Source: Gammaproteobacteria bacterium
GTDB lineage: Bacteria; Pseudomonadota; Gammaproteobacteria; Enterobacterales; Alteromonadaceae
Length of the DNA: 64,000 nucleotides
Reading direction: 5' to 3'
Assembly (NCBI GenBank): GCA_018222405.1
Contig: JAAFAI010000007.1
Span: forward strand, 1 to 64,000
Position numbers and translations under genes: made by a program. Positions 51,601 through 57,561 of this stretch are shown here, one piece after another. Numbering within the stretch: the stretch's first letter is position 1; each line of letters begins with the position of its first letter. Below the pieces are notes generated by a model. That model was not told the origin of the DNA, searched no databases, and worked only from the letters and a program-made list of their open reading frames with translations.

Positions 51601-53853
51601 ATGAGCGACGAAATTACCATTAACCAAGACGGTGTCGAACAGCTCCCCATTCGACGATTTACTGAAGACGCTTATCTGAATTACTCCATGTATGTCATCA
51701 TGGACCGTGCCTTACCCAATATTGGTGACGGCCTCAAACCCGTACAGCGGCGGATTATTTATGCGATGTCCGATCTGGGCCTGAGCTCCACGGCAAAGCA
51801 CAAAAAATCAGCCCGTACCGTGGGTGATGTACTGGGTAAATTCCACCCTCATGGTGATTCTGCGTGTTACGAAGCTATGGTCCTTATGGCCCAGCCTTTC
51901 TCTTATCGCTATCCGTTGGTCGACGGCCAGGGCAACTGGGGAGCGCCGGACGATCCGAAATCATTTGCTGCCATGCGTTATACCGAGGCGCGGCTGTCTA
52001 AATTCAGTGAAGTGCTGTTGTCAGAACTTGGCCAGGGAACCGTTGACTGGATCCCTAACTTTGATGGCACGCTGAACGAGCCGCTGGTGCTGCCAGCGCG
52101 ATTACCGCATATCCTGCTAAACGGGGTAACTGGTATTGCCGTGGGGATGGCCACCGATATTCCGCCGCACAATGTGCGAGAAGTTGCTCATGCCTGTGCC
52201 AGATTGCTGGATAACAGCAAAACCGAGCTACATGAATTACTTGAGGATATTCAGGGCCCTGACTATCCCACTGACGCCGAAATTATTACCCCGCGTAGCG
52301 ATATTCGTAAGCTCTACGAAACCGGGCGCGGCAGTATTAAGATGCGCGCCAAGTATCATGAAGAAAGTGGTGATGTGGTTATTACCGCACTGCCACATCA
52401 ATCCTCCGGTGCGAAAATTCTGGAACAGATTGCCGGTCAGATGCAGGCTAAAAAGTTACCTATGGTCAGCGATTTGCGCGATGAGTCAGATCATGAAAAC
52501 CCCACGCGGCTGGTGGTTGTGCCACGGTCTAACCGGGTTGATACCGAACAATTGATGCAGCATCTGTTTGCCACGACCGATCTGGAAAAAAGCTACCGGG
52601 TTAACCTGAATATGATTGGCCTGGATGGCCGGCCGCAGGTCAAGGATTTGCGGACTATCCTGAGTGAGTGGCTGGTATTCAGAAAAGATACCGTCACCCG
52701 TCGTTTGCAATTCCGCCTGGATAAAGTGCTGGCTCGCCTGCATATTCTTGAAGGTTTAATGATTGCCTTTTTGAATATCGATGAGGTGATTGAAATTATT
52801 CGCTTCCACGATGAACCCAAAGCGGAGTTAATGCGCCGCTTTAGTCTGAGTGACAAGCAGGCCGAAGCGATTCTGGAACTAAAACTGCGCCACCTTGCCA
52901 AGCTCGAAGAAATGAAGATTCGCGGTGAGCAGGAAGAGCTAGAAAAAGAACGTGACCATCTGCAGCAGTTGCTCGGCTCCGATCGCCGTTTAAAAACACT
53001 GATTAAGAAAGAAATTCTGCAGGATGCTGAAACCTATGGTGACGACCGCCGTTCTCCTATCGTTGAGCGAGCCGAAGCTAAGGCTCTGAGCGAGAAAGAA
53101 CTGGTGCCCAGTGAAGCCGTTACTGTAGTGCTATCTGAAAAAGGCTGGGCTCGGTGTGCCAAAGGGCACGATATTGATGCCGAGGCCTTAAGTTATAAGT
53201 CAGGCGATAAGTACCTTGCCAGTGCCCAGGGGCGCAGCAATCAGCCAGTGGTGTTTCTCGACACTTCAGGGCGGGCATTCTCCTGTGATGCGCATGGCTT
53301 GCCATCGGCCCGAAGTCAGGGCGAACCGCTGACAGGTCGCTTTAGTGTAGTGGCCGGGGAACAGTTTAGTCATGTAGTGATGGGCGCCGATGATGGAAAG
53401 TATCTGATGGCCTCTGACGCTGGCTACGGTTTCGTTGGCACCTTTACTGATATGATCAGTAAGAACAAAGCGGGTAAAGCCTACCTGAACCTGCCGACTG
53501 GTGCCAAAGTGCTCGCCCCGCAGCGGGTGGATAACCTGGATACCGACTGGTGCATGGCTATTTCAAACGAAGGCCGCATGTTGCTGTTTCCATTGCGGGA
53601 TTTGCCGAGTCTGGGTAAAGGTAAGGGGAATAAGCTTATCAGCATCCCATCGGCCAAAGCGCAAACCCATGAAGAGTATGTCAAAGTGCTTGCGGTTGTT
53701 CCGGAAGGCGCGGCAGTTAAAATTACTGCGGGCAAACGGAGTATGACCCTGAGCGCGGAAGATCTGGCGCACTACCAGGGCGAGCGCGGTCGTCGCGGTA
53801 ATAAGCTCCCCCGCGGGTTACAGCGTGTCGACCAGGTCGACATCGAAATTTAG
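51601..53853 (+). CDS. parC: DNA topoisomerase IV subunit A
   Basis: The DNA-cutting subunit of topoisomerase IV, which unlinks daughter chromosomes. The catalytic Tyr (about 127) is in [11 protein letters not shown]. The quinolone-resistance region [12 protein letters not shown] keeps Ser87 and Glu91 (E. coli Ser80/Glu84), the susceptible wild-type residues. GYxF-like domain and coiled coil ([19 protein letters not shown]) are followed by the C-terminal beta-pinwheel. The length of 750 residues is normal. parE is not adjacent in the window, and the gene has its own terminator. Confidence 0.96.
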
Positions 53854-53862
53854 CTGTTTAAT

Positions 53863-53892
53863 GCGCCCTGGCTCCACAGGGCGCAGGCTTTT
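53863..53892 (+). terminator. Terminator after parC
   Basis: Stem GCGCCCTG-gctcca-CAGGGCGC followed by AGGCTTTT. Confidence 0.85.
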
Positions 53893-54020
53893 CTGCAAAA
53901 CCTCTCCCAGTGCTAACACCTACAGTCTAAAAATCTGATTTTATTGGGCAGTTTGTGTGTGCTTTCAGCGACTTCTTCTACACTTAATACCAATCGCCAC
54001 AGGATTTATGGAAAGTCTTT

Positions 54021-54562
54021 ATGCTTGGAATTGTGTTCACGTCGCTGGTGGAAATGCTCGAGGACAATATCTCACCTGAATTTGCCGACGAAGTATTGGT
54101 TGAGGCAAACCTGGAGAACGATGGTGCTTTAACGCTGTGGGTTATTATCCTTTCAGTGAGCTGCAAAAAATTATGGTGGTGCTGGTAAATAAGACCGGCC
54201 GGTCGCTGGACGATTTACTCTATGATTATGGCAAGTACCTGTTTACGGTACTGTCAGCAGGTCATGCTGAGATGATGGCCAATCGCCAGTCGGTACTGGA
54301 AATTCTCGATTGCCTGGATGACGATATTCATGTGCAGGTAAGAAAGTTATACCCCGATGCCGATCTGCCCTCGTTTAAGGTGTTGGAGCGTACTCCCGAG
54401 ACGATAAAAATGGAATATCATTCCATGCACGACCTATACGCCCTGGCTGAAGGCCTTATCGACGGCGCGGCGGCGTATTTTTCGCAACAGGTTGAGCATT
54501 TCGTGACGCCAACCGAATTGCAGCACACTTATCATATAGACGTAAAATTAATCGCATCGTGA
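54021..54562 (+). pseudogene. H-NOX haem-nitric oxide sensor gene with a one-base frameshift
   Basis: An H-NOX (HNOB) protein binds haem and NO and regulates a partner enzyme. The first frame (ATG 54021) reads MLGIVFTSLVEMLEDNIS and on to LENDGA, then runs out of frame to a stop at 54186. The rest, from about 54128, is in the next frame: FNAVGYYPFSELQKIMVVLV, YGKYLFTVLSAGHAEMM with the likely proximal His, and HVQVRKLYPDADLPSF. Restoring one T in the TTT at 54128-54130 rejoins it into a normal 180-residue protein. The YxSxR haem-propionate motif is YHSMH, with His for Arg. Either a true frameshift mutation or an assembly error. It overlaps the GGDEF-EAL gene by four bases. Confidence 0.85.
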
Positions 54563-56715
54563 ATGATATGTCATCCTCCGCAGCCAGTGTTGCCAGCCTG
54601 AGCCGACGGCTGGAGCGGGAAAAGGCGGCCAGAAAACAAGCTGAAACCCTGCTTACGGAAAAGAGCCGGGCCCTTTACGATGCACTGACCACAAGTCGTA
54701 GTGACAAGGAAAAGCTCGAACTGGCGCTATGGGCCAGTCAGGAAAGCTACTTTGAGTGGCATGCAGAGGAGGATACCTTCATCATCCGCTCTTTCGGCTT
54801 ACGCCACAAGCAACTGCGTGAGGTTAAACAAAATGCCATCGCGTTGATGCGCCGGGTACATGCCGATGATTTACCCCAGGTACAGCTGGGCTGGTCTATG
54901 GCGGTCAATGGTGAAAGCGACGATATTGAATTGATTTGCCGGATCCGTGGGGTGGGAGGGTACCAATGGACCCGCGCCCGTGGCAAGGTACTGGAGCGAG
55001 ATAAAACCGGTACCGCCACCTACATCGTAGGTATGGCTAAGGATAAAACCCGTGAACATCACGCTGAGCAGTCTTTTCAGCTTATGGCTTCGGCTTTTTC
55101 CAGTTCCCGCGAACCCATGCTGGTGCTGTCTACCAGTCTGCAAATTACCGAGTGTAATGAGGCGTTCAGGCGGTTAGCCAGACTCAGTGATACTGAGACT
55201 GTCGAGAAGTTGCAGCTGGACTGTTTTCTAAACAATGCTCAGGAACCACTGCAGCGAATTAATCAGACCCGTCAGGAAAGGTTTGAAACCGAGCTCACTA
55301 CCCGGGATGGTCAGGACATTGCGGTTGACGTTTCACTCGCGATATTCGAAACAAGGCACATGAGTTCTTCTTACTTAATTGCCACCTTGCGTGATATTAG
55401 TGAACGCAAGAAGAATGAACAACAGCTTCGCGTGCTGGCCAATCATGACGATCTTACTGGTTTGAAAAATCGCTTGGGCTTGCGCAGTGCACTGGAAGAG
55501 CTGGTGGAGGGACAACAACATTTCGTGTTGTCTTTCATCGACCTGGATGGCTTCAAGCAAATCAATGATATAGCGGGTCACGAGCTCGGAGACGAATGTT
55601 TACAAATTGTGGCGCGCCTGCTGATTAATACCTTTCCCGCCTCTGCGATTGTTACCCGCTGGGGCGGCGACGAATTTATTATCGCCAGCACCGAGACCGA
55701 TAAAACCGCTTTTCATCAGCTCAATCGGCAAGTGATCGACACCCTCGAAAGCCAGACCTTTAAAAGCGGCAAAACCGAATTGACCGTGTCAGCCAGTATA
55801 GGCATAGCGACTTATCCTGCGGACGGCGACAGTATCGAGACGATTATCCAAAATGCCGATGTGGCCATGTACCGGGCTAAAACGGGTGGTAAGGGCAGGG
55901 TATATGAATACCACGATGGCCTGACTGAACATGTCAAAGAACAGGTATCCATGCTCAGCGACTTACGCCGGACCATCCGTAACCGGGGGCTGGAGTTTTA
56001 TTTGCAAGGCAAATATAACGTGGCTGGCGGTCTGATTGGTGCTGAATTGTTATGCCGCTGGTTTTCGCCGCTACACGGTATTGTTAGCCCGGGAGTCTTT
56101 ATCCCGCTTGCGGAGCAACATGGTCTGGATATGGATATCGGTCTGGTGGCCCTGGAATCGGCTTGTGAATATATCAGCATGCTGGAAACAGAGCGCATTA
56201 GCCTGCCACTGTCGGTGAACATCAGTGCGAATCAGTTATTGAGTGAATCCTTTGCCGAAGATGCAGCTGCCATTTGTGCCGAACATTTTGTATCGCCTGA
56301 GTTGGTGGAAATCGAAATTACCGAGTCTATTTTCATTCAGGATGAAGCGGCGGCTATTAAAGGGTTGGCGGCTTTAAAAGCGCATGGGTTTATTATCGCG
56401 CTGGATGACTTTGGCTCCGGCTTTTCGTCGCTGAGTTATTTGCGCAAGTTTGACTTTGATGTGATAAAGCTCGATCGCAGTCTGGTAAAAGAGATCGATA
56501 GTTCTGAACGGGCCCGATCGCTGTTAAATGGGATCTTTAAAATGCTCGAAAGCTTGCGCCTGGAGGTCATTATTGAAGGGGTGGACAATTCTGCTTATCT
56601 GCCACTGCTGGAAAATATTGGCATCAATTCTTATCAGGGGTTCCTGTTTGAAAAACCATTACCTTATGATCAGTTTATATTAAAGCATACCCAGGGATGG
56701 CGTATGATTAAGTAA
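54559..56715 (+). CDS. PAS-GGDEF-EAL cyclic-di-GMP enzyme, H-NOX partner (HaCE type)
   Basis: A 718-residue soluble cyclic-di-GMP enzyme. Coiled coil (about 8-60), two PAS-like domains (about 60-170 and 175-290), a GGDEF domain with the canonical RWGGDEFII, and an EAL domain with the first motif as GAELLCRWFSP (Glu kept) and ALDDFGSGFSSLSYLRKF. Both catalytic halves look intact. In related bacteria such enzymes are encoded right after H-NOX and have their phosphodiesterase activity set by NO-bound H-NOX. The GTG start overlaps the H-NOX stop (GTGA), which implies coupled translation; an ATG at 54568 is an alternative. If the H-NOX gene is dead, this enzyme may be uncoupled from NO or poorly translated. 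Confidence 0.92.
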   Translation: MNDMSSSAASVASLSRRLEREKAARKQAETLLTEKSRALYDALTTSRSDKEKLELALWASQESYFEWHAEEDTFIIRSFGLRHKQLREVKQNAIALMRRVHADDLPQVQLGWSMAVNGESDDIELICRIRGVGGYQWTRARGKVLERDKTGTATYIVGMAKDKTREHHAEQSFQLMASAFSSSREPMLVLSTSLQITECNEAFRRLARLSDTETVEKLQLDCFLNNAQEPLQRINQTRQERFETELTTRDGQDIAVDVSLAIFETRHMSSSYLIATLRDISERKKNEQQLRVLANHDDLTGLKNRLGLRSALEELVEGQQHFVLSFIDLDGFKQINDIAGHELGDECLQIVARLLINTFPASAIVTRWGGDEFIIASTETDKTAFHQLNRQVIDTLESQTFKSGKTELTVSASIGIATYPADGDSIETIIQNADVAMYRAKTGGKGRVYEYHDGLTEHVKEQVSMLSDLRRTIRNRGLEFYLQGKYNVAGGLIGAELLCRWFSPLHGIVSPGVFIPLAEQHGLDMDIGLVALESACEYISMLETERISLPLSVNISANQLLSESFAEDAAAICAEHFVSPELVEIEITESIFIQDEAAAIKGLAALKAHGFIIALDDFGSGFSSLSYLRKFDFDVIKLDRSLVKEIDSSERARSLLNGIFKMLESLRLEVIIEGVDNSAYLPLLENIGINSYQGFLFEKPLPYDQFILKHTQGWRMIK

Positions 56716-56718
56716 ACG

Positions 56719-56748
56719 CGGTCGGGAATTACTGTCCCGACCGTATTT
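56719..56748. terminator. Terminator between HaCE and DUF1338 genes
   Basis: Perfect 9-bp stem CGGTCGGGA/TCCCGACCG (56719-56727, 56735-56743), followed by TATTT, between converging genes. Confidence 0.75.
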
Positions 56749-56754
56749 ACAAGA

Positions 56755-57561
56755 TTAACGCGCGTTGGTGCTTTCGAAAATCTTATCTGCAGACGCTTCT
56801 ACAAAACCCTGATAAAGCTTGCCATCCGGCATAGTGTAGCGCTGGGCAAATTCATAAAAGCAGCTGGGAATATTCAGGCTGCCATCGCTGAACGCCAGGT
56901 TGTACTCATCTGCCATGGTTGATGACTGGGCCAGGTAGACAGACTCACCGCCTTTTATCTCACCGCCTGAAGTATTCAGCACGAAACCGGCTTCTTTCAG
57001 CAGGGTGTTGACATCGGTCAGGGTGTCGATGTTGTTCAGGTGGTTTACACTCACGGTAAAGTGATTGGCCCTAAAGCCCCAGGCGGCCAGCCAGCCGGCA
57101 TATTCAGATTCGTTGATGAGCGATTGGTATTCCTGAGTGGAAATCTGCCAGTGACGGCCAGAGTAAAGAAAGTTTTCGGCTTCTACTACGCTGGCAGGCA
57201 TTTGTTCTACCAGCGCATGGATAATGCGCTGTGTTTCAGCAGAAAACTCATTTACCCGCAGTTCACTGATGAACACTTTGGGCACCGTTGGATCCGGGTG
57301 CTCGAAGTGCTGGGCGGTGACTTTTTTCGCTTTAAAGTCGTAGTCACCCTTAGCTTCGTAACCCAGTGCCAGAAAAAGCTCAGCTAAGTGAGAGAGTCGG
57401 GTTTTATCCAGCGCATAGGTACGAAACGCCACGTGGTCGTTGACGATCTGCGGGCTGTCTTCCTCACCGGCCAGCAGCTTATGAATGCGCAGCGCACTGG
57501 GGGTAATACTAACGTAATCTTTCCAGAGCGCCGAAAACAGGCTATCGGTTGTCTTATGCAT
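56755..57561 (-). CDS. DUF1338 protein (HglS/YdcJ-like metal-dependent dioxygenase)
   Basis: A member of DUF1338, whose characterised relative HglS is a 2-oxoadipate dioxygenase/decarboxylase giving 2-hydroxyglutarate in lysine breakdown. The likely iron ligands are His in IVNDHVAFRTYA, His in FRANHFTVSVN and Glu in CFYEFAQRYTM. At 268 residues it is shorter than HglS (about 460) and belongs to the compact subgroup. It starts 15 bases after the astD stop, last in the arginine-catabolism unit. Whether it acts on an arginine-pathway intermediate is unknown; the neighbours suggest so. Confidence 0.82.
   Translation of the reverse strand: MHKTTDSLFSALWKDYVSITPSALRIHKLLAGEEDSPQIVNDHVAFRTYALDKTRLSHLAELFLALGYEAKGDYDFKAKKVTAQHFEHPDPTVPKVFISELRVNEFSAETQRIIHALVEQMPASVVEAENFLYSGRHWQISTQEYQSLINESEYAGWLAAWGFRANHFTVSVNHLNNIDTLTDVNTLLKEAGFVLNTSGGEIKGGESVYLAQSSTMADEYNLAFSDGSLNIPSCFYEFAQRYTMPDGKLYQGFVEASADKIFESTNAR

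Follow-up and report, generated by a model that had tools for sequence, protein, structure and literature searches.

In Shewanella woodyi, an H-NOX protein (SwH-NOX, SWOO_2751) and its GGDEF-EAL partner (DGC/PDE, SWOO_2750) have consecutive locus tags and serve as a model in which the control of c-di-GMP by NO is studied. PMC8738867 lists the pair as well. According to PMC8846402, the S. woodyi enzyme binds SwH-NOX, which is needed for its activity, and carries out mainly c-di-GMP synthesis without NO and mainly degradation with NO. The same paper describes NosP-NahK-NarR as an analogue system.

The pair analyzed here comes from a marine Alteromonas genome that is 99.45% complete (4.96 Mb in 47 contigs), and lies in a stretch of 64,000 nucleotides (bases 1-64000 of contig C20) that we refer to as the window. 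It resembles the S. woodyi pair in that H-NOX has a GGDEF-EAL partner, and differs from it in that the H-NOX gene is split by a frameshift. The solved H-NOX chains closest by sequence are 6bde, 6ocv and 6bdd, which belong to the same family (A. oceani residues 1-159 and 1-164) and are presumably of Shewanella and Vibrio origin. Among the loci compared, the nearest from another genome is that of A. oceani S35 (L032), whose H-NOX region is 88.7% identical in DNA; it shares the gene order, the overlap between the two genes and the motif YHSMH, but its H-NOX is intact (180 aa). In the papers searched, none joins H-NOX, pseudogene and frameshift, and we located no description of such a loss there; one mentions both H-NOX and Alteromonas, with a title on quorum quenching. 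We conclude, with a probability of roughly 0.63, that the only H-NOX found in this genome was inactivated by a real frameshift of very recent date, and that this is ordinary pseudogenization of a known NO/c-di-GMP module.

The H-NOX gene (54021-54562) consists of two reading frames that meet at about 54128-54137 (Table 1). Positions 54021-54134 match residues 1-38 of the A. oceani H-NOX in one frame (97% identity) and positions 54128-54559 match residues 37-180 in another (94% identity). We confirm both frames, the place where they meet and the GTGA overlap with the next gene, as claimed in a sequence-only reading of this DNA. The N-terminal piece ends at a TAA stop (54186-54188) and scores 13.3 bits against the Pfam HNOB model (PF07700), below the cut-off of 25.5; the C-terminal piece scores 90.1 bits. 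Of the 163 positions in this model, the C-terminal ORF, which also has an internal ATG at 54173, covers only 39-160. It holds His104 (numbering of the intact protein), which lines up with two solved H-NOX chains within IHV..K.YP and which we take to be the proximal haem ligand. Given the split, no single frame spans both H-NOX subdomains, and we class the gene as an H-NOX pseudogene rather than an H-NOX. This was the single HNOB match in a profile search of the whole genome; no further match was found.

Table 1. Features at and around the H-NOX locus, in coordinates of the window.
Feature	Position	Strand	Remarks
parC (presumed from its sequence)	51601..53853		upstream of H-NOX
Terminator-like stem	53862..53885	+	between parC and H-NOX; consensus scan alone
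H-NOX N-terminal piece	54021..54188	+	55 aa ORF, of which about 36 residues are genuine H-NOX and the rest an out-of-frame tail
Lesion	54128..54137	+	net one base shorter than intact orthologues, plus an adjacent substitution (DNA alignment with seven relatives)
H-NOX C-terminal piece	54137..54562	+	141 aa ORF, GTG start at 54137
PAS-PAS-GGDEF-EAL gene (HaCE-type)	54559..56715	+	complete, 718 aa; GTG start overlapping the H-NOX TGA (GTGA)
9-bp stem, possible terminator	56719..56743	listed for -	consensus scan alone; between the convergent GGDEF-EAL and presumed DUF1338-like genes

The lesion was located in an alignment of eight sequences (the window and its seven relatives) with no base put back. 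The substitution lies within about five bases of the missing base, so that the exact base lost is not fixed. The earlier suggestion that one T at 54128-54130 would repair the gene is supported as to the one-base shortfall and not as to the identity of the lost base. The site is not in a long homopolymer; most relatives have four T there. Upstream, the leader differs from that of A. oceani at 54008, a change that weakens Shine-Dalgarno pairing at the H-NOX start (-3.6 versus -5.8 kcal/mol; -5.8 to -9.3 kcal/mol in seven relatives). The change at 54008 makes an out-of-frame ATG, 13 bases 5' of the H-NOX start. One relative with intact H-NOX (L033) has an ATG at the same place in its leader, but with a strong Shine-Dalgarno site.

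The partner gene directly adjoins H-NOX, as in HaCE-type pairs, and encodes GGDEF (135.5 bits against Pfam) and EAL (202.2 bits) domains as well as PAS domains. Its protein contains RWGGDEF, NIS, ITES, DDFGSG and KLD, and the EAL signature reads ELL, with the Glu retained; we take all six to be catalytic motifs of GGDEF-EAL enzymes. The intact partner with its catalytic motifs, expected behind the disrupted H-NOX, is thus present, the one correction being that EAL reads ELL. By eye, the partner protein has no RxxD inhibitory site directly before GGDEF.

No Shine-Dalgarno-like site was identified at the GGDEF-EAL start (+0.7 kcal/mol versus a random median of -1.5 over 300 positions). The starts in seven relatives, measured one base off, give +0.4 to +0.5 kcal/mol. 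The GTGA overlap and the lack of a Shine-Dalgarno site at GGDEF-EAL suggest that this gene was probably translationally coupled to H-NOX. A consensus scan of 53800-56800 found no promoter-like site, and four terminator-like sites versus 3.1 expected in shuffles. The terminator-like stem that the scan placed between parC and H-NOX hints that H-NOX and GGDEF-EAL may form their own transcription unit.

To place the lesion among relatives, we searched 60 genomes with the GGDEF-EAL protein, 36 of them in Alteromonas (that of the window included). Matches of at least 49% identity came from 29 of these 36, and from the remaining seven there were only distant matches. A search of a plasmid collection returned no match. 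With four loci from named contigs (L032, L035, L036 and L037) this makes 33 loci. Those from A. oceani, A. alba, A. lipolytica and MAGs are the basis for assigning the window to the genus. H-NOX is unbroken, in one frame over at least residues 1-171, in 30 of the 33. The three broken genes are those of the window, MAG UBA2620 (L036) and A. alba 190 (L037), and the window's lesion occurs in none of the 32 other loci. Comparison of the orthologous locus therefore turned up no relative with the same split. A family search gave a concordant picture: HNOB was found in 54 of 59 Alteromonas species genomes, and the match starts inside the domain only in the window's genome (G000), G061 and G072 (profile positions 35, 43 and 43). 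The latter two are the assemblies of A. alba 190 and UBA2620, respectively, as contig numbers, positions and scores are identical. The parC tree has the form (window,(A. oceani,(UBA2620, A. alba))), with supports of 96, 98 and 100. From the two frames, the restriction of the lesion to one of 33 loci and the absence of another HNOB match in the genome, we infer that the break is real and recent.

A second-type H-NOX in another Alteromonas species (L046:1486-1860, contig G021:C33) has two in-frame TAG stops and an open HNOB frame only in its C-terminal part (124 aa). We read it as another H-NOX gene lost in the genus.

Like the window, A. alba 190 and UBA2620 have a frameshifted H-NOX, but the lesion is a different one: a one-base gain about 20 bases beyond that of the window, and of opposite sign. 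Moreover, the GGDEF-EAL gene is whole in the window and dead in both of these genomes (L036:4408-6165 and L037:4408-6164). Both dead genes are interrupted by the same in-frame stop, at codon 137, and both carry a 399-base deletion, which takes away the end of GGDEF together with the beginning of EAL. Strain 190 has also lost one base near the start of the gene and carries an extra stop, at codon 149. Because the main lesions are common to two separate assemblies, one of an isolate and one a MAG, they are very unlikely to be assembly errors. In A. oceani, H-NOX and GGDEF-EAL are both intact. As the lesions differ and intact A. oceani lies between them, we interpret the alignments as showing that H-NOX was broken twice, independently. 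The independent A. alba break, the decay of the partner gene there and the likely loss of translational coupling had not been foreseen from the window's DNA. We considered whether loss recurs above background, and two events in 54 H-NOX-bearing species are not clearly unusual against 1-2% of frameshift-like genes per contig. A. alba 190 is reported to have narGHI (PMC12388587), and a lack of nitrate-reduction genes therefore does not account for its loss of the module.

The YxSxR motif, which stabilizes haem propionates (review, PMC8196705), reads YHSMH in the C-terminal piece, and the sequence-only reading took this as a sign that the sensor may already have diverged. YHSMH is also found in L002/L033, L003/L034, L032, L036 and L037, with YYSMH in L035, YYSVH in L004/L038, YHSLH in L005 and YFSKH in L008 (paired labels are one assembly each and were counted once). 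In all, YxSxH occurs in 10 of the 43 distinct genomes with an H-NOX that matches the A. oceani query, and seven of these ten genes are intact; the remaining 33 genomes have YxSxR. Seven second-type H-NOX loci (L039-L044 and L046) do not match this query and lie outside the 43. The aligned chains of 6bde and 6ocv have YxSxR, unlike the clade of the window. Since YxSxH occurs in intact genes, the R-to-H change is, on this alignment, older than the H-NOX break and kept under constraint (background omega of about 0.05 in nine genomes). YHSMH is thus not a mark of decay.

The age of the break was approached with a branch-omega codon model (custom script) of nine genomes, with the lesion neighbourhood masked. 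For H-NOX, omega is 0.059 on the window branch versus 0.049 elsewhere (lnL gain 0.09), and an omega of 1 is rejected by 33 lnL units. With the window branch set to 0.10, 0.15 or 0.20, the fit loses 0.9, 3.1 or 5.5 lnL units, which gives an interpolated upper bound of about 0.125. If the gene evolved neutrally after the break, the break fills, as a rough estimate, at most about 8% of the window branch. Derived H-NOX codons (synonymous/non-synonymous) number 36/7 in the window, 6/5 in UBA2620 and 4/0 in A. oceani; codons 1-35 in the window account for 5 synonymous and 0 non-synonymous. In the A. alba clade, H-NOX omega is 0.29 versus 0.044 (lnL gain 4.4), and setting it to 1 costs 1.95 lnL units. 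GGDEF-EAL has an omega of 0.080 on the window branch versus a background of 0.082, and of 0.24 versus 0.080 in the A. alba clade (lnL gain 2.1; an omega of 1 worse by 3.1 lnL units). By this model, the window fragments are under full constraint and constraint on the A. alba H-NOX is relaxed. As constraint on the window branch is not relaxed, the break is, on the same estimates, either very young or a sequence error. The A. alba decay must by this measure not be old either, and the loss of GGDEF-EAL there must be fairly young, because an omega of 1 fits worse than 0.24.

The main rival to a real break is thus a sequencing or assembly error, in which the H-NOX of the strain is intact and the published bases are wrong at about 54130. 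We consider this unlikely on balance, though still a serious contender. An error would give exactly the unrelaxed constraint that both H-NOX pieces show, which counts against a genuine break. The lesion is also private to one assembly among the 33 loci, and that assembly is a draft. Against an error, the lesion is not in a long homopolymer and lies next to a substitution, and A. alba shows, by lesions in two separate assemblies, that loss of the gene is possible in this clade. The rate of frameshift-like genes, moreover, is similar in the window's contig (3/144 with A. oceani queries) and the A. oceani contig (2/142 in the reverse screen, with proteins of the window's genome).

Further screens flagged 3/161 genes in contig C20 with queries from MAG G034 and 2/127 with A. 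alba queries; A. oceani queries flagged 1/123 in A. alba and 3/141 in G034. All of these counts are lower bounds, as the broken A. alba GGDEF-EAL went unflagged and the window H-NOX was not listed with G034 queries. Among the C20 cases found with A. oceani queries, H-NOX alone lies inside the window. The other two are not in long homopolymers, and the one at about 120.7 kb may be upstream, non-coding DNA. We rejected the idea that the assembly is error-prone, given the similar rate in A. oceani, which does not by itself prove the single H-NOX case real. A break in the window at 15.7-16.3 kb, flagged by a G034 query, was also set aside and not counted, as the G034 gene is itself broken relative to A. 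oceani or window queries.

Two side observations concern neighbouring contig sequence and the MAG. Farther along contig C20, beyond the window, the loss of one base splits a gene of some 142 codons (L077, G000:C20:89531-89955) that A. oceani and A. alba have as an open frame. In G034:C66, the contig of L034, apparent frameshifts at about 20.3, 91.7 and 174-175 kb affect three genes that A. oceani has intact.

It is also conceivable, though we regard it as improbable, that the gene is in use as two pieces: re-initiation at 54137 or 54173 would yield a C-terminal piece with the haem histidine, and coupling to GGDEF-EAL would be kept. The C-terminal ORF is open up to the GTGA overlap and strongly constrained, and the ATG at 54173, 13 bases short of the stop that ends the first piece, has a weak Shine-Dalgarno site (-2.8 kcal/mol versus a random median of -1.5). 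However, the N-terminal piece is equally conserved, which survival of the C-terminal piece alone leaves unexplained. The split is in no other locus read, and the C-terminal ORF lacks the first 38 positions of the HNOB model. A programmed ribosomal frameshift joining both frames, for which nothing speaks beyond two overlapping open frames, is extremely unlikely: the 30 intact loci have a single frame and therefore no conserved shift site, the frameshift in A. alba is at a different site and of opposite direction, and the window's lesion is absent from the 32 other loci read, which supports the sequence-only reading on this point.

If the frameshift is genuine, as we favour, a whole GGDEF-EAL enzyme would still be encoded and left without an H-NOX to bind, and would lose its NO/H-NOX input. 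Expression of the enzyme would probably be lower too. Ribosomes that stop at 54188, 370 bases before its start, would reach GGDEF-EAL poorly, because this start lies inside the H-NOX stop codon and has no ribosome-binding site; re-initiation at 54137 or 54173 may occur. A. alba, with its H-NOX frameshifted by another mutation and its GGDEF-EAL carrying a stop and the large deletion, would represent a later state of the same decay. NO sensing need not vanish, as the window's genome still has three FIST-domain genes. One of these, a FIST/FIST_C gene of NosP-like type (L114:1363-3592, contig G000:C18), overlaps a PAS-domain gene downstream and is a possible remaining NO sensor.

The single case is ordinary gene decay and not a new mechanism, and its interest lies mainly in the series formed by A. 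oceani, the window and A. alba. A broader reading is that NO sensing through H-NOX is repeatedly being dismantled in one Alteromonas clade, with the window's enzyme newly sensorless and perhaps sustained by re-initiation on a remnant that keeps the haem ligand; we hold this to be rather doubtful. If true, the three genomes would form a natural series from intact to sensorless to fully dead, in which the fate of an enzyme after loss of its sensor may be observed. With these three genomes one could examine whether a GGDEF-EAL enzyme that has lost its NO sensor does harm, has no effect or remains of use.
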